64,000 nt of DNA from Streptomyces agglomeratus (GTDB lineage: Bacteria > Actinomycetota > Actinomycetes > Streptomycetales > Streptomycetaceae), in assembly GCF_001746415.1 (NCBI RefSeq), contig NZ_MEHJ01000001.1, forward strand, positions 3,865,001-3,929,000, given 5' to 3'. The position numbers were made by a program, and so were the translations under genes. Below are positions 3,506 to 11,304 of the stretch, piece by piece. The notes below the pieces were generated by a model. That model ran no database searches. It was not told the origin of the DNA and saw nothing but the letters and a program-made list of their open reading frames with translations. Every line of letters starts with the position of its first letter. Within the stretch, counting starts at the first letter, position 1.

Positions 3506-3660
3506 TCACGGTGCGACGGCCCACCGGAGCCGCCTGTGCGGACGTCATGGTCCGCCGGTGTCCTTTTCACGGCCATCGCGTGACAGATGGTGGTGGTTGA
3601 TGACGAGTGGCCATGGAATCGTCTGATGTGACCCGGCTGGTTCGCAGACCGGAGGCTTCC

Positions 3661-6309
3661 ATGGACAAGCGGTATGAGGTGTACTGCCTCGTCGACCCGT
3701 GGTTCTACGACGCCCCGGCGCACACAGGGCGCGACGAGAGCCACGACTTCGAGGCCGCCCGCCGCCCGGTACCCGACGGGTGGGTACGCAGCGAACTGGG
3801 CGACTGGTTGGTCTACCGCCCGGACGACCTGAAGCTGCCCGTCCAGGGCTGGAAGATCCACGCCTCCGCGCGCCTCGACAACGCGGAGGAGATCCTGGCC
3901 GCTGTGTGGGACTACTGCGTCCCCCGCCGGATCTCGTTCAAGTTCCTCCCCAGCAAGGACTTCCTGCTCCTGGCGAACGCGAAGTACGCGCACCGCGGCG
4001 CCAGCGGCAAGTTCGTGACGGTCTACCCGGCGGACGAGACGCAGTTGCGGAGCGTTCTCACCGAGCTCGGCCGGGTCCTGGAGGGCCGCCGGGGACCGTA
4101 CATCCTCAGCGACCTGCGCTGGGGCCCCGGGCCGCTCTACGTCAGGTACGGCGCCTTCGCCGACCGGTACTGCGTCGCGCCCGGCGGCGAGGTGTCGCCG
4201 GCGATCGAGGACGCGAGCGGGCGGCTGGTGCCCGACGTGCGGGGGCCGACGTTCCAGGTGCCGGACTGGATCCGGCTGCCGGAGTTCCTGGAGCCCCACC
4301 TCGCCGAGCGGGCGCGTACGACCGTCTCCGACCTCCCGTACCGCATCGACAGCGCGCTCCACTTCTCCAACGGCGGCGGCCTGTACGCGGGCGTGGATCT
4401 GCGGACCGACGAGCGCGTCGTACTCAAGGAGGCCCGGCCGCACGCGGGACTCACGCCCGACGGCTCGGACGCCGTGACCCGGCTGCGGCGCGAGCGGGAG
4501 GCGCTGGAGCGGCTGGCCGGCCTCGACTGCGTGCCGGCCGTGCGCGACCACTTCGAGCTGGGCGAGCACCACTTCCTCGTCGAGGACTTCATCGACGGAC
4601 CGACGCTGTACGAGCAGTTCGCCGAGCGGTACCCCCTGGTGGCGCTGGAGGCGGACGAAGCGGCGTACGCCGGGTACACCTCCTGGGCCCTCGACATGAT
4701 CCGGCAGATCGAGGCGGCCGTCGCCGCCGTGCACGAGCGCGGTGTGGTCGTCGGCGACGTGCATACGTTCAACACGCTGGTCCGGCCGGACGGGCGCGCG
4801 GTACTGATCGACTTCGAGGGCGCGTCCGACGCCGCCCACGCCCGGCACCAGACCCTCGCCGCTCCCGGCTTCGTCGCCCCGCACGAGGCCACCGGCTTCG
4901 ACATCGACCGGTACGCCCTCGCCTGTCTGCGGCTCTTCCTCTTCATGCCGCTGACCGGCCTGATCGCACTCGACGCGAGCAAGGCCGGTCAGTTCGCGAG
5001 GGAGGCCGCCCGGCTGTTCCCGCTGCCCCCGGGCTACCTGGAGGACGCCGTACGTGTGATCGAGGGGAAGGGGAGCCGGCGGGCGCCCGCGCCGCCCGCC
5101 GGCGAGCCGCGTCTCGACCCCGACCCGAGCGGCTGGGTACGCGCACGGGACTCCCTGTCCGCCGCCGTCCTGGCCAGTGCCACGCCCGAGCGGGACGACC
5201 GCCTCTTCCCGGGGGACGTCGAGCAGTTCCTCACGACGGGCAGCGGCCTGGCCTTCGCGCACGGCGCGGCCGGCGTCCTGTACGCCCTGGACGTGACCGG
5301 CGCGGGCCGTCATCCGCGGTACGAGGACTGGCTGGTCCAGCACTCCCTGCGCCCCGAGCCGGGGACGCGTCCCGGCTTCTACGAGGGCCTGCACGGGGTC
5401 GCGTACGTACTCGAACACCTGGGGCACCGCGCCGAGGCGATGAAGATCCTCGACATGTGCTCGGGCGAACGGTGGGAGCGGCTCGGCCTCGACCTGCGCG
5501 GCGGACTGTCCGGCATCGGCCTGAACCTGCTGCACTTCGCGGCCCGCACGCAGGACCCCGCGTTCCGGGACGCCGCACTCCAGGTGGCGGACGTCGTCGC
5601 CGGGCGGCTCGGAGCCGCCGACTCGGTGCCGGAGGTCAGTGGCGGTGAGCAGCCGTACGCCGGGCTGATGGCCGGGTCCGCCGGGCCCGCGCTGATGTTC
5701 GTACGGCTCCACGAGTACACCGGCGACACGGGGTTCCTCGACCTCGCGGCGACGGCGCTCCGGCAGGATCTCCGCCGCTGCGTGGTGCGGGAGGACGGGG
5801 CGATGGAGGTCAACGAGGGGTTCCGGACGATGCCCTATCTCGCCGACGGCAGTGTGGGCATCGGACTGGTACTCGACGACTACCTCGCCCACCGCGAGGA
5901 CGAGCGGTTCGCCGAGGCCGCCGCCGCTGTCCGCAGGGCCGCCACCGCGCCGTTCTACCTGGAACCCGGGCTCTTCGACGGGCTCGCCGGAATGATCTTC
6001 CACCTCAGCCGGGCGCACCCGCCCGGAACGGCCGCCGGGCGCGACCCGGTGGTCGCCGCGCACATCCGCCGCCTGGCCCGCTACGCCTGCACGTACGAGG
6101 GCGACCTGGCCTTCCCCGGCGAACAGCTCATGCGGCTCTCCATGGACCTGGCCACCGGCAGCGCCGGTGTGCTGCTGGCCCTCGGATCCGCCCTCCACCA
6201 GGACACCGTGCTGCTGCCCTTCCTCGCCCCGCCGGGGCGGGCGGCAACCGGGCAGCACACGCCGGACCACCTCCCCGACCTCGAAACGGACCGTACAGAA
6301 AGGAGGTGA
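3661..6309 (+). CDS. ramC: RamC/AmfT-type class III lanthionine synthetase
   Basis: Modifies the RamS precursor: it phosphorylates Ser residues, eliminates phosphate to dehydroalanine and cyclises onto Cys. The 882 residues show three regions. The N-terminal lyase-like region is about 1-210. A Ser/Thr-kinase-like region at about 225-480 has an ATP lysine in ERVVLKEARPH, a catalytic loop in VHERGVVVGDVHTFNTLVR and an IDFEGA metal site. The C-terminal LanC-like cyclase region is about 500-880. No LanC zinc-ligand set was apparent there, as expected for class III. The ATG at 3661 (MDKRYEVYCLVDPWFYD) follows GGAGG; an in-frame GTG at 3607 is less likely. The stop codon lies inside the ribosome binding site of ramS, which implies coupling. 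Confidence 0.93.
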   Translation: MDKRYEVYCLVDPWFYDAPAHTGRDESHDFEAARRPVPDGWVRSELGDWLVYRPDDLKLPVQGWKIHASARLDNAEEILAAVWDYCVPRRISFKFLPSKDFLLLANAKYAHRGASGKFVTVYPADETQLRSVLTELGRVLEGRRGPYILSDLRWGPGPLYVRYGAFADRYCVAPGGEVSPAIEDASGRLVPDVRGPTFQVPDWIRLPEFLEPHLAERARTTVSDLPYRIDSALHFSNGGGLYAGVDLRTDERVVLKEARPHAGLTPDGSDAVTRLRREREALERLAGLDCVPAVRDHFELGEHHFLVEDFIDGPTLYEQFAERYPLVALEADEAAYAGYTSWALDMIRQIEAAVAAVHERGVVVGDVHTFNTLVRPDGRAVLIDFEGASDAAHARHQTLAAPGFVAPHEATGFDIDRYALACLRLFLFMPLTGLIALDASKAGQFAREAARLFPLPPGYLEDAVRVIEGKGSRRAPAPPAGEPRLDPDPSGWVRARDSLSAAVLASATPERDDRLFPGDVEQFLTTGSGLAFAHGAAGVLYALDVTGAGRHPRYEDWLVQHSLRPEPGTRPGFYEGLHGVAYVLEHLGHRAEAMKILDMCSGERWERLGLDLRGGLSGIGLNLLHFAARTQDPAFRDAALQVADVVAGRLGAADSVPEVSGGEQPYAGLMAGSAGPALMFVRLHEYTGDTGFLDLAATALRQDLRRCVVREDGAMEVNEGFRTMPYLADGSVGIGLVLDDYLAHREDERFAEAAAAVRRAATAPFYLEPGLFDGLAGMIFHLSRAHPPGTAAGRDPVVAAHIRRLARYACTYEGDLAFPGEQLMRLSMDLATGSAGVLLALGSALHQDTVLLPFLAPPGRAATGQHTPDHLPDLETDRTERR

Positions 6310-6315
6310 CAGGAC

Positions 6316-6444
6316 ATGACACTCCTCGACCTGCAAGGGCTGTCGGCCGAAACCAGCGCCAAGCCGCCGCCCGGAAGCCGGGCGAGCAAGGGCTGCGGCA
6401 ACAACCGGTACAGCGCGCTTAGCCTTCTGTGCTCGCTGTTCTGA
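6316..6444 (+). CDS. ramS: SapB/AmfS-like class III lanthipeptide precursor
   Basis: A 42-residue precursor. The leader has the class III recognition element LLDLQGL near its start, followed by an acidic/Ala-rich stretch. The core begins around PGSRAS, and its C-terminal half reads GCGNNRYSALSLLCSLF. It contains two Ser-x-x-Ser-x-x-Cys units (SRASKGC and SALSLLC), each able to form a lanthionine or labionin ring. SapB has three residues between the second Ser and the Cys; here there are two. The inter-ring segment GNNRY is polar, unlike SapB. It is preceded by the very strong site AAAGGAGGTGA and lies 6 bp after ramC. The product is expected to be a secreted morphogenetic surfactant. Confidence 0.9.
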   Translation: MTLLDLQGLSAETSAKPPPGSRASKGCGNNRYSALSLLCSLF

Positions 6445-6456
6445 GTGACCGTGAAA

Positions 6457-6484
6457 GGCGGGGACACCTCCGCGTGTCCCCGCC
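6457..6484 (+). terminator. Hairpin between ramS and ramA, likely attenuator
   Basis: A perfect 11-bp inverted repeat (GGCGGGGACAC at 6457-6467, GTGTCCCCGCC at 6474-6484) with a 6-base loop, 12 bases after the ramS stop. No U tract follows, as is usual in Streptomyces. It lies inside the operon, so it probably reduces read-through into the transporter genes or stabilises the ramCS message, giving more precursor than exporter. Confidence 0.7.
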
Positions 6485-6566
6485 GTACCTGTGACCGCGA
6501 ACGTCATCGCGAGCGCGCGTACCAGTGCCAGTGCCAGTGCCAGTACCGGCAGGGAGTGGGTGGGCC

Positions 6567-8476
6567 GTGTCCCGACGTGCGGCGGACCAACTGCTGCTCA
6601 CGGCGGTCCGGCGGGGCGGTGCGCCGGTCGGCGCGCTGGCCGCCACGTCGTTGCTGCTGGCCTGCGTCTACCTGGCCCTGCCGGCGGTCGTCGGCCGGGC
6701 CCTTGACGCCGTTCTCGGCGGCGAGGACGCGGCGCTGTGGCTGTCGCTGGCCGCTGTGTCGGTCGCGCTGCTGGTGGCGTGCGACGCTTCGGACGACTTC
6801 ATCGGGGCGGTGGCCAACGCCCGGTCCATCGCGTGGCTGCGCCGCACCCTGCTGCGGCAGGTACTCGCGCTGGGCAAGCGCGCCGCCCGGCGCTTCGGCG
6901 CCGGGGACCTGGTCAGCCGCCTGGTGGGCAACACCGCCCGGACCGGCAGCGCGCCCTCCAGCCTGGTGTGGGCGTTCACCGACCTCGTGCCTCCCGTCGG
7001 CGGCATCGTGGCGTTGGCGCTCATCGATCCCTGGCTCTGCGTCACGTTCCTCGCCGGGCTCCCCCTTGTCGTACTCCTGGTGCGGGCGTTCGTCCGCGAC
7101 GTCTCGGACCTCAATGAGCAGTACTTCGCGACCCAGGGCCGGATCGCCGGGCGGCTCGTCGGCGCCCTCGCCGGAATCCGCACGATCGCCGGGGCGGGGA
7201 CGGTGGACCGCGAGGCCGGGCGCGTGCTCTCGCCGCTGCCGGAGCTGCACAGCAACGGCCTGGGCATGTGGCGCGCGTACGCCAGGGTCTCGGCGCGCGC
7301 AGCGCCCTGGTCGTACCGCTGCTGCAAGTCGCCGTACTGGCGGTGGCGGGGCTGGAACTGTCGCGCGGGCGGATCAGCATCGGCCAGGTCGTGGCGGCGA
7401 GCGAGTACGTGCTGCTGGCGATGGGGGTCAGCTCGGTCGTGGCCTCGGTCAGCAAGCTGACCTTCGCGCGCGCGACCGCGTCGCGCATCGCGGAGGTCCT
7501 CGACGAACCCGCCATGCGGTACGGCGACGAGCGGTTGCCGGCTGTGGACGCGGGCGGCGCGGTGGGCGACGGGAGCGGTGGTGCGGGGCTCGGGAACGGG
7601 GGCGCAGGACGTGAGAGCGGCTCGGGGCTCGGGCGGCTCGACTTCCGGCAGGTCACCGTGCGCGCGGCGGACGGTGGCGTCGTACTGGACGGTCTCGATC
7701 TGACCGTGCCCGGCGGAGCCCTGGTCGCGGTCGTCGGGCGGTCGGGGTCGGGCAAGTCGCTGCTGGCCGCGCTGGCCGGGCGGCTGCTGGACCCGGACGA
7801 GGGCGAGGTGCTGCTGGACGGCGTACCGATGCCGCGGCTGGCCCGTGACGAATTGCGCCGGGCGGTCGCCTACGGCTTCGAACGCCCGGTGCTGCTCGGC
7901 GAGACGGTGGCCGAAGCCATCGGGTTCGGGCCCCGGCGGCCGTCGGCCGACGAACTGGTGGCCCACGCGGCGGCGGCCAGGGCCGACGCGTTCGTCCGGC
8001 ATCTGCCGGCCAAGTACGACACCCCGCTCAGCCAGGCCCCGATGTCGGGCGGGGAGGCTCAGCGCATCGGGCTAGCCCGCGCGTTCGTGCAGGCGGGGCG
8101 GGTCCTGGTGCTCGACGACGTGGCCGCGAGCCTGGACACCGTGACCGAGCACCACATCAGCCGGGTACTGACCGGCGCGCTGGCGGACCGTACCCGCCTG
8201 GTCGTCACGCACCGGGCGTCGACCGCCGCGAGGGCGGAGCACGTCGTCTGGCTGGCCGGAGGGCGGGTCCGGGCGGAGGGAACGCACGGGGAGCTGTGGA
8301 CGGACCCGGGCTACCGGTCCGTGTTCCAGTCGGCCGGACCTGCCGGACCGGACCGGGCGGACCGGCCGGACCGGGTGCACCGGGCGGACCGGGCGGACCG
8401 GGCGGGTCAGTCCGGCAGAAGCGATCCACCGGACCGACCGGACCGGCCGGTCGCTGCTCCGGGAGGTGCCCCGTGA
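6567..8476 (+). pseudogene. ramA: RamA-type ABC exporter half-transporter, split by an apparent frameshift
   Basis: One of two fused membrane/ATPase subunits that export the lanthipeptide. Bases 6567-7299 encode the membrane helices in one frame. From about 7292 the rest of the protein (transmembrane end, then ATPase with Walker A VVGRSGSGKS and signature MSGGEAQR) continues in the -1 frame. The switch falls in a GGCGCGCGCAGC run, and one extra base there restores a single protein of about 635 residues. Both halves keep normal codon use, so a sequencing error or a very recent mutation is likely. The Walker B reads VLVLDD, so the usual catalytic Glu is Asp. The GTG at 6567 follows AGGGAG. Confidence 0.82.
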
Positions 8477-10392
8477 ACCGGGAGGCGGGCAGGCTGCTCC
8501 GCTCGGCGCTGCACCGGCGGCGCCGGGAGTTCCTGCGGATCGCCGGCTGGTCGTTCGTACAGGCGGTACCGGCCCTGCTGTCCGGCTGGGTCATCGCCCG
8601 CGCCGTCGACGACGGCTTCCTCGCCGGGCGGCCCGGCCAGGGCGCGGCCTGGCTGGGGGTCCTGGCGGTCGCCGTCCTGGTCGGCGCGTGGGGCACCCGG
8701 CACACCGCGCTCGGGCTCGCCTCGGTCGTCGAACCGTTCCGGGACGAGCTGGTCACCCTGGTCACCACCGGCACCCTGCACCGCTCGGCCCGGCACGGCG
8801 AACCCGCCGACACCGGCTCCGTGGCGCGCCTGACGGAGCACGTGGAGATCGCCCGGGAGGCGTACGGGGCGGTGATCATGTTCGTCCAGACCTTCCTCAT
8901 CACGGCGGTGAGTGTCGTGCTGGGACTCGCCGCCCTGGACCCCGCCCTGCTCCTGCTGGTCCTGCCGCCGCTGCTGCTCGGGCTCGGCGTCTTCCTGTCG
9001 GCGCTGCGCGCGATGGCCGCGCGTCAGCGGGCGGTCGTCGTGGCTGACGAGCGTCTGGCCGAGACGATGAGCGCGGCGGCGGGGGGACTTCGTGACGTGG
9101 TGGCGTGCGGCGCCGAGGAACGCGTCGAGGCGCGGACCGGTGAACGGATCGACGCCTCGGTGCGGGCCGCCCGCGCCCTGGCCCGGCTCACCGCGCTGCG
9201 GACCGCCGCCCTGGGCATCAGCGGCTGGGTTCCCCTCCTGCTGATCCTGGCCGGTACGCCGTGGCTGGTGCGCGGCGGCGTGAGCGCCGGGGCGATCCTC
9301 GGGGCGGTGGCGTACGTGTCGCAGGGCCTGCAACCGGCCCTCCAGGACTTCGTACGGGGCCTGGCGGGCAGCGGCCTCTGGCTGGCGGTCTCACTGGCCC
9401 GCATAGCGGAAGCGGCCCGTACGCCGCCGGAGGAGGACAAACAGCGGGCGGACGTCGCGCCGCGGAAGCGGGAGGCAGGGCCGGAACAGGAGACACGGCG
9501 GCCGTCGGTGGAGCTGTGCGGGGTGACCTTCGGGTACGCCGGTTCCGCCGAGCCGGTGATCCGGGACCTCGACCTCCGGTTGGACCCCGGCCACCATCTG
9601 GCCGTCGTGGGGCCGAGCGGCGCGGGGAAGTCCACCCTGGCGGCGCTGGTCGCCGGGCTGCTCGTACCGCTGAGGGGGCAGGTGCTCCTCGGCGGCGATC
9701 CGGTCCGGGCGCCCGTTGCCTGCGCCCCCGCGGCCCTCGCCGGCCGGCGCGTGCTGATCCCGCAGGAGGCGTACGTGTTCGACGGCACGCTCCGCGAGAA
9801 CCTCGCCTACCTCAGTCCCGACGCCCCGGCGGCGGAGCTGGACAGGGCGGTGGAGTCCGTGGGCGCGGGCCCGCTGGCCGAACGGCCGGGGGGTTACGAC
9901 GCGCCGCTCGACCCGCAGGAACTCTCCGCCGGTGGGCGCCAGTTGCTCGCGCTCGCCCGCGCGTACCTGCCGCCCGCACAGCTCGTTCTGCTGGACGAGG
10001 CCACCTGCCACCTCGACCCGGCCGCCGAAGCGGTCGCGGAGCAGGCGTTCGCCCGCCGTCCCGGCACGCTCATCGTGATCGCCCACCGGATCAGCTCGGC
10101 ACTGCGGGCGGACGTCGTGCTCGTACTGGACGGTCCGCAGACCCGGCTCGGCACCCATGAGGAGCTGATGGCCTCCTCCGCCCTCTACCGCGACCTGGTC
10201 GGCCACTGGGAGGCCACGGCCCGGCCACCGGCCCCCGCACCCGCGGCGGCATCCCCGGCCGGACCCGCACCCGCCACGCCGCAGACACCCGCACCCGAGG
10301 CGGCACCCCAGCCCGCACCCGCGCCCACGTCCGCCTACGCGTACGCCGTGCAGCCGCACCGCGCCCGCCGCACCCACCGGACGACCGAATGA
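8473..10392 (+). CDS. ramB: RamB-type ABC exporter half-transporter
   Basis: Second half-transporter, 639 residues, pairing with RamA. Transmembrane region about 20-300, then an ATPase with Walker A VVGPSGAGKS, signature LSAGGRQLLALARA, canonical Walker B LVLLDEATCHLD and switch His in IVIAHRISS. The GTG start overlaps the ramA stop (GTGA), so the two are translationally coupled. The last 60 residues are a Pro/Ala-rich tail ending in a basic cluster and probably lie in the cytoplasm. Because only this subunit has the catalytic Glu, the RamAB heterodimer would have one consensus and one degenerate ATP site. Confidence 0.9.
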   Translation: MNREAGRLLRSALHRRRREFLRIAGWSFVQAVPALLSGWVIARAVDDGFLAGRPGQGAAWLGVLAVAVLVGAWGTRHTALGLASVVEPFRDELVTLVTTGTLHRSARHGEPADTGSVARLTEHVEIAREAYGAVIMFVQTFLITAVSVVLGLAALDPALLLLVLPPLLLGLGVFLSALRAMAARQRAVVVADERLAETMSAAAGGLRDVVACGAEERVEARTGERIDASVRAARALARLTALRTAALGISGWVPLLLILAGTPWLVRGGVSAGAILGAVAYVSQGLQPALQDFVRGLAGSGLWLAVSLARIAEAARTPPEEDKQRADVAPRKREAGPEQETRRPSVELCGVTFGYAGSAEPVIRDLDLRLDPGHHLAVVGPSGAGKSTLAALVAGLLVPLRGQVLLGGDPVRAPVACAPAALAGRRVLIPQEAYVFDGTLRENLAYLSPDAPAAELDRAVESVGAGPLAERPGGYDAPLDPQELSAGGRQLLALARAYLPPAQLVLLDEATCHLDPAAEAVAEQAFARRPGTLIVIAHRISSALRADVVLVLDGPQTRLGTHEELMASSALYRDLVGHWEATARPPAPAPAAASPAGPAPATPQTPAPEAAPQPAPAPTSAYAYAVQPHRARRTHRTTE

Positions 10393-10489: not shown

Positions 10490-11095
10490 TCACAGCCAGC
10501 CCGACTCCCGGACGATCCGGATGGTGTCGACCCGGTTGCGTGCCCCCACCTTGTTCGCGACCGCCGAGAGGTGGTTGCGAACCGTCCCCACCGAGAGTGC
10601 CAGCCGGTCCGCGATCTCCCTGGTCGGAGTCCCTTCGGCACCCATCCGCAGCACCTCCAGCTCGCGCGGCGTCAGCGGGCTCTCGGCCGCGTTGACCGCC
10701 AGTACGGCCAGCTCCGGGTCGATGTACCGCTGGCCGCTCGCCACCTTGCGGATGCCCTCCACCAGCCGGTCCGCGGGCGCGTCCTTCCCGATGAGGCCGG
10801 GCGTGTGCTGGGCCAGCACACGCCAGAGGCACTCGCGGGTGGACGAGCCGGTGACCAGCAGCATCCGGCAGTCCGGGAGCTGCGCGGACAGTGCGCCCCC
10901 CAGAGCCAGCTCCTCGCGCTGCGGGGAGTCGACGTCGATCACTGCGACATCGGGCCGGTACGACAGTGCCCGCGCCAGCACCGAGCCGTTCCCCTCGGCC
11001 TCCACGACGACCTCGATGTCCCCCTCACGGGCGAGGAGCGCGGCGAGCGCGCCGCGCATGAGGCCGGTGTCCTCGACGAGCAGAACCCGGATCAA
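10490..11095 (-). CDS. ramR: RamR/AmfR-type response regulator (NarL family)
   Basis: Activator expected to switch on the ram operon. The N-terminal receiver domain is atypical: LIRVLLVEDTGLM supplies the acidic pocket and VAVIDVDSPQ the phosphoacceptor region. The C-terminal LuxR-type HTH reads LTPRELEVLRMGAEGTPTRE, then IADRLALSVGTVRNHLSAVA. The gene is convergent with ramB, the standard arrangement of this locus. I chose the TTG at 11095 because GGTGGGAG lies just upstream and the product (201 residues) then begins right at the receiver domain; an ATG at 11116 would add seven residues. No histidine kinase is adjacent, fitting an orphan regulator. Confidence 0.88.
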   Translation of the reverse strand: MIRVLLVEDTGLMRGALAALLAREGDIEVVVEAEGNGSVLARALSYRPDVAVIDVDSPQREELALGGALSAQLPDCRMLLVTGSSTRECLWRVLAQHTPGLIGKDAPADRLVEGIRKVASGQRYIDPELAVLAVNAAESPLTPRELEVLRMGAEGTPTREIADRLALSVGTVRNHLSAVANKVGARNRVDTIRIVRESGWL

Positions 11096-11304
11096 TGTGG
11101 CTCCCACCCGGCGCATGCGGCCTGCTGTCACACGTCGCTTCATCTGTCCCCTGCCGAAGTCGGGCATCCGGCCGCAACCGGACGAACACACCCGGTCGAA
11201 TCATCCCCCGCCGAAACCCGGATCGCCATTGGCCGAGCCGCGCGTCCCGGCGGGACAATGGTGGGGAGGGGACATGCCTTCCATGCGGAGAGGCGGGACT
11301 TCCG

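Follow-up and report, generated by a model that had tools for sequence, protein, structure and literature searches.

The window analysed here, a stretch of 64,000 nucleotides of Streptomyces agglomeratus DNA, probably carries a class III lanthipeptide cluster of ram-like kind, the second in its genome, whose product is expected to be a cationic head-and-tail amphiphile that would accompany the main morphogen. SapB-type peptides are usually regarded as a single family of hydrophobic surfactants; a sister lineage with a charged and contracted ring A would, if true, give some Streptomyces two class III peptides of unlike physical character. This lineage would also offer a natural test of the effects of ring size and hydrophobicity and of the tolerance of LanKC towards ring size, with 41 variants of ring B and 43 of the hinge at hand for such tests. 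Judged from its sequence, the peptide is best read as an uncharacterised cationic branch of the SapB/AmfS-family lanthipeptides, undescribed as far as searches of the literature and of sequences show. Since its ring spacing lies within the general class III motif and NCBI labels relatives of its precursor as SapB/AmfS family, it represents a variant of an already known kind of peptide.

Precursor gene and cluster organisation

The precursor gene (Table 1) comprises 42 codons and a stop, and its translation, MTLLDLQGLSAETSAKPPPGSRASKGCGNNRYSALSLLCSLF, holds two ring units, S21-S24-C27 (SRASKGC, ring A) and S33-S36-C39 (SALSLLC, ring B), separated by the linker GNNRY. Each unit has two residues between the second Ser and the Cys (x2) and satisfies S-(X)2-S-(X)2-5-C, the form in which the class III motif is printed in the available text of PMC8960859. 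Ser40, in the C-terminal tail, could undergo a fifth dehydration. The stop codon of LanKC (6307-6309) is embedded in the ribosome binding site of the precursor, and GGAGGTGA precedes the precursor in all 14 loci compared (the window and L056-L068). The initial annotation had described the 42-codon gene, its LLDLQ leader, both SxxSxxC units and the ribosome binding site, and all of them are indeed read at this place and just upstream.

Against Pfam PF19402 (RamS) the precursor scores 33.5 bits, above the curated cut-off of 24.3, whereas it falls narrowly below the cut-off of the NCBIfam SapB/AmfS family NF033212 (24.5 bits, cut-off 25) and clearly below that of lanthi_III_b, NF038159 (22.9 bits, cut-off 30). 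The adjoining LanKC exceeds the cut-off of its own family, NF038151, as expected next to a class III lanthipeptide precursor, and the earlier assignment of a class III precursor adjoining its LanKC is upheld by these matches. A short ORF in GC-rich DNA might be a chance reading frame that merely lies beside LanKC, yet the likelihood of this is close to nil: the leader, the core, the ribosome binding site and, mostly, a downstream hairpin are kept in related loci, and a search seeded with LanKC independently finds such precursors. Together with the RamS match, the presence of GGAGGTGA in 14/14 loci and the close homologues found in other strains, this search confirms by sequence comparison that the gene encodes a class III lanthipeptide precursor, beyond what chance would give.

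Table 1. Features of the class III lanthipeptide cluster in the window
Feature	Position	Strand	Description
LanKC, class III lanthionine synthetase	3607..6309	+	NF038151 1125 bits (cut-off 575); RamC_N PF25816 271 bits
Ribosome binding site AAGGAGGTGA	6300..6309	+	contains the LanKC stop codon
Precursor peptide gene	6316..6444	+	ATG at 6316; leader MTLLDLQ..., core ...PPPG-SRASKGC-GNNRY-SALSLLC-SLF
Hairpin GGCGGGGACAC-CTCCGC-GTGTCCCCGCC	6457..6484	+	directly 3' of the precursor gene
First ABC transporter gene, frame-broken	6525..8476	+	permease frame 6525-7460, ATPase frame 7268-8476
Second ABC transporter gene, permease and ATPase	8296..10392	+	start uncertain; PF00005, PF00664; kept in relatives
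Response regulator, NarL/LuxR-like, convergent	10490..11191	-	several NCBIfam regulator models, all below cut-offs; kept in relatives

The LanKC frame is open and without stops. Its start is likely the ATG at 3661, closely preceded by a GGAGG site; counted in the frame read from 3607, alignments with relatives start at residues 10-19. In the S. caniscabiei locus (L066, 7148-9952) LanKC was matched in two pieces. The alignment reveals the DFE kinase motif in the window enzyme, a motif reportedly conserved among class III enzymes characterised as forming labionin (available text of PMC10604976), although DFE alone does not prove labionin formation by this LanKC. The order of the five genes is maintained in those relatives with contigs long enough to show it, and no protease gene is found among the five. 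According to the part of PMC8960859 consulted, the protease gene is missing from many class III clusters.

The hairpin behind the precursor gene has a GC-rich counterpart at the same place in 13/14 loci as judged by eye, being absent from L062 and altered in L065. When 10 of the 13 hairpin loci were aligned, one of them cut short, 95.2% of cells were paired; one double-changed pair was seen, and as many are reached by 364 of 500 shuffles, so that covariation is weak while conservation is clear. A search for a T-run terminator after the precursor gene found none, the hairpin having no T-run, and Rfam gave no match within the window. The hairpin may shield the 3' end of the precursor message, in which case the precursor would exceed the enzyme.

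A short GC repeat interrupts the first ABC transporter gene with a frame change located within 7268-7305, a feature absent from the initial annotation. The matching place is a single open frame in 14/14 relatives (12 SRASKGC loci, L069 and L070); in four of them the gene has stops towards the C-terminus, from residue 570 onwards. Because the gene is broken here and open in all of these relatives, production of the peptide by the source strain is doubtful. We consider it somewhat unlikely that the cluster was recently inactivated in the source strain, the peptide perhaps being made and left unexported. The two frames, as opposed to one in the relatives, and the position of the break in a GC repeat speak for such a lesion, but a sequencing error in the repeat is equally likely. 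Moreover, both pieces of the gene and the flanking genes are 72-82% identical to those of ISL-98, and long decay of the window cluster is therefore not evident. In the second ABC gene of L060-L063 and L068, several hundred extra bases were observed, a stretch lying between about residues 374-389 and 394-402 (window protein numbering).

LanKC lineages and the second cluster of the genome

A FastTree phylogeny of LanKC was built with 86 rows, leaving out L066, L124, L140, L147, L158 and L172 for want of a long enough frame. The 18 SRASKGC rows, which amount to 14 different sequences since four rows are copies, their genomes being entered with two locus ids each, form one side of a branch with a support of 99. 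The other main clade contains 63 rows (support 100), the cores of which we take to be of SapB and AmfS type; durhapeptin-type cores are also included (PMC13380574). An IQ-TREE analysis of a chosen 33-row subset agrees with this split. By its sequence, the window LanKC is placed outside the clade of SapB, AmfS and durhapeptin-type cores, in a separate lineage in which SRASKGC and HSNLSV-type rows group together (support 99). Among 39 chosen rows, the x2 spacing of ring A maps as one change on the tree, with 17/17 rows in one group at a support of 91, which falls under the 95 mark. The LanKC positions that differ between the lineages were listed, and no clear meaning emerged from them.

Three LanKC genes above the cut-off are present in the source genome, in the window, at C1:5520871 and at C1:4219183. 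In the cluster at 5.52 Mb, about 1.65 Mb from the window, a LanKC is joined by the precursor MALLDLQSLDTPETDGGDQSSLSLLACDKHSSNSFLLCL, a pair of ABC proteins and a response regulator, at identities of 42-53% to the window proteins. Its LanKC falls inside the SapB/AmfS-type clade. Given that this cluster possesses its own precursor, ABC proteins and regulator, the window cluster is, on the sequence evidence, a paralogue and not the sole ram-like locus of the genome. The third and distant LanKC (L071, at 4219183) showed no precursor when searched by leader motif. Likewise, 7/7 SRASKGC genomes also hold a LanKC of the canonical clade, accompanied by a precursor of its own; the other cluster encodes durhapeptin-like precursors (S.LS.LSCVSAAS.TLCL) in five of the seven and other precursor types with three residues between the second Ser and the Cys (x3) in G087 and G000. 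A third precursor type, HSN.SV..LC with basic flanks, occurs at L109, L111, L118, L214 and L215, next to LanKCs of a neighbouring branch, and three genomes (G001, G128 and G276) carry it alongside two other class III clusters.

Ring spacing, charge and variation

For comparison with the RamS type, 90 loci of the genus were sampled, the top 30 matches and 60 picked from the remaining matches listed, one of which (L157) was dropped as it gave no precursor by the motif used. All 89 readable precursors spell SxxSxxxC twice (x3/x3), in a sample that covers the higher-scoring, listed members of the family. The window precursor, x2 in both rings, is one residue shorter per ring, as the initial annotation had claimed relative to the SapB (RamS) type. 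The same annotation had called the core more polar, and this too is borne out. The window core has a charge of +3, and among 63 unique SRASK[G/S]C precursors core charge ranges from +1 to +4, as compared with 0 to -2 in 89/89 canonical cores. The net charge of ring A is +2 in all 63, and its mean hydropathy is -0.87, against 1.10 to 2.29 in the canonical type, none of the 89 canonical cores matching this polarity. The sequence SRASKGC itself is spelled in 62 of the 63, a uniformity that is partly by construction since the searches were seeded with it.

Behind this charged head the peptides vary. The hinge measures 0-16 residues, with 43 different sequences among the 63 precursors, and ring B exists in 41 different sequences, although ring B and tail are hydrophobic throughout (mean hydropathy 1.79, range 0.33 to 2.54). 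Ring B spacing is x3 in 51 precursors and x2 in 12, the window belonging to the latter; a C-terminal tail of 2-5 mostly hydrophobic residues follows the x2 ring in 12/12, while 39/51 of the x3 type terminate at Cys. The pairing of a shortened ring B with a C-terminal tail was seen on at least three leader backgrounds. Pro-x-Gly immediately precedes ring A in 62/63 precursors, as PPPG in 42 and APAG in 9.

This pattern bears on two other functions that may be proposed for the peptide. One is that of a cationic membrane-active or antimicrobial peptide directed against competitors, the variation of hinge and ring B reflecting an arms race. The positive charge of 63/63 cores, the hydrophobic second half and the number of ring B and hinge variants would suit such a role; no dedicated immunity gene, however, appears among the conserved genes when the window ORFs are compared with relatives, and the genes are arranged as in morphogen clusters, so that we judge this function unlikely. 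The other is that the peptide is the SapB/AmfS morphogen of the strain, a divergent and more polar form of the extracellular biosurfactant needed for aerial growth, close to the initial annotation's view of a SapB variant beside ramC. The leader type and the five-gene order with its convergent response regulator are the same, and NCBI names the relatives after SapB/AmfS, but the window LanKC lies outside the canonical clade, a full canonical-clade cluster resides at 5.52 Mb and ring A is polar and charged, when in durhapeptin a single Leu to Thr exchange abolished activity (available text of PMC13380574). Accordingly, the view that the peptide is the strain's SapB variant is not supported, and a role as the strain's own morphogen seems quite improbable.

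Distribution across genomes

GSRASKGC precursors were confirmed in 7/392 sampled genomes of the genus, of which 210 give any RamS match. A protein search seeded with RamS matched 912 proteins, and in a profile search seeded with the SRASKGC motif 52 of the 53 proteins returned spell it. A core particular to the source strain is thereby ruled out, SRASKGC recurring in Streptomyces and Kitasatospora. A wider spread across the class was considered and rejected: the DNA pattern was matched in 6/394 class-wide genomes, and on translation SRASKGC was met only in the source genome and in G699, where it sits in a long frame without a leader. SRASKGC, GSRASKG, RASKGC and SxxSxxC are spelled nowhere in the main text of the papers searched, a result that, being limited to such text, is no proof that the motif is new.

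In order to lessen the seeding bias, the 392 genus genomes were also searched with LanKC, scoring two candidates per genome. The window enzyme aside, identities to it fall, among the matches listed, into a group of 64-72% (19 matches) and values of at most 58%. Precursors beside the 64-72% group carry SRASKGC, SRASKAC (2), SRASKHC (1), SGASKYC (3) and SCNSRYC (1), each of them with x2 spacing and a Lys or Arg; beside LanKCs of the same group, five HSNLSV-type precursors, x3, were also found. An invariant SRASKGC as a biological law is weakened by these variants; what holds for them as the constant feature of ring A, on the sequences compared, is the x2 spacing with Lys or Arg, SxxS[KR]xC. The x2 type of ring A occurs in at least 14/392 genus genomes, a lower bound because two candidates were scored per genome and listed matches only were counted; G272 was included through its precursor, its LanKC lying outside the 64-72% group. 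At L233, which has a LanKC of this group, a precursor was sought and none found. At L232 (G006, minus strand, 2818) a LanKC of the same lineage stands by an unusual ORF resembling a precursor, in which a leader and a single SxxS-type unit are followed by an extended basic tail.

We tentatively propose a broader picture, possible though doubtful, in which a distinct ram-like lineage of Streptomyces and Kitasatospora makes cationic head-and-tail lanthipeptides beside the canonical clusters, SxxS[KR]xC having arisen once and staying nearly constant while hinge and ring B vary.

Proposed biosynthesis and function

For the chemistry, processing, export and function of the window peptide, we infer the following course. 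LanKC would bind the LLDLQ leader and then phosphorylate and eliminate Ser21, Ser24, Ser33 and Ser36, after which Cys27 and Cys39 would be joined to dehydro residues, the link being either lanthionine, between the first Ser and the Cys, or labionin. For cores beginning at Pro17, Gly20 or Ser21, the monoisotopic masses calculated for four dehydrations are 2622.295, 2331.136 and 2274.115 Da, and a fifth at Ser40 would reduce each by 18.011. Phosphorylation, elimination and cyclisation are described for class III enzymes in the available text of PMC10604976. Lanthionine is reported for SapB and AmfS and labionin for durhapeptin, and the choice between them is considered unpredictable from the synthetase sequence alone (PMC13380574, as far as available). 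If LanKC installs labionin in the contracted ring A, its thioether portion would be a ring of four residues. In the product, a tight cationic ring A with Arg and Lys would be linked through a variable hinge to ring B, which is hydrophobic, as is the tail behind it.

Removal of the leader presumably falls to a protease encoded outside the cluster, perhaps one of the M1 AplP-like type, which first cuts and then trims (available text of PMC10885120); six M1 peptidase matches are found in the source genome. We hypothesize that M1-type trimming would halt at the conserved Pro-x-Gly, and the ABC pair, if intact, would then export the peptide. Its charge pattern and the gene order suggest, as the most likely place of action, the envelope or surface of the producer itself, where the peptide would accompany the main morphogen and not replace it. 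In the broader and more doubtful picture given above, a constant head with a variable tail would suit a surface signal that is specific to the strain but has an anchor common to all.

Comparison with known systems

The window core shares with labyrinthopeptins and labionin peptides the motif S-(X)2-S-(X)2-5-C (PMC8960859) and its enzyme the DFE motif (PMC10604976), within the available text of both; the organism and the cluster differ, and labionin is a putative feature of the window peptide. Durhapeptin of S. durhamensis, described in the accessible part of PMC13380574, has a cluster of the same general type, with a LanKC, a precursor, a transporter, an ABC protein and a response regulator, and likewise two ring units; unlike the window core, it is very hydrophobic, with SxxSxxxC rings reported as labionin, and its hydrophobicity, the very property lost from ring A of the window core, was found critical for activity. 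The HSNLSV-type peptides (see above for their loci) resemble the window peptide in the basic flanks of the core and in having a LanKC from a neighbouring part of the lineage, but their own ring A is x3 with hydrophobic ring residues.

The class III morphogens SapB (RamS) and AmfS, presumed here from their core sequences, have in common with the window cluster a leader of LLDLQ type, a pair of ring units, a LanKC, two ABC proteins and a convergent response regulator, placed as reported for RamR and AmfR. SapB is a biosurfactant (available text of PMC9011353). In contrast to SapB and AmfS, the window LanKC belongs to a separate lineage, the ring units are SxxSxxC and not SxxSxxxC, ring A is cationic and polar, and the core is positively charged where canonical cores are uncharged or slightly acidic and hydrophobic; the window type of cluster, furthermore, co-exists with a canonical-clade cluster.
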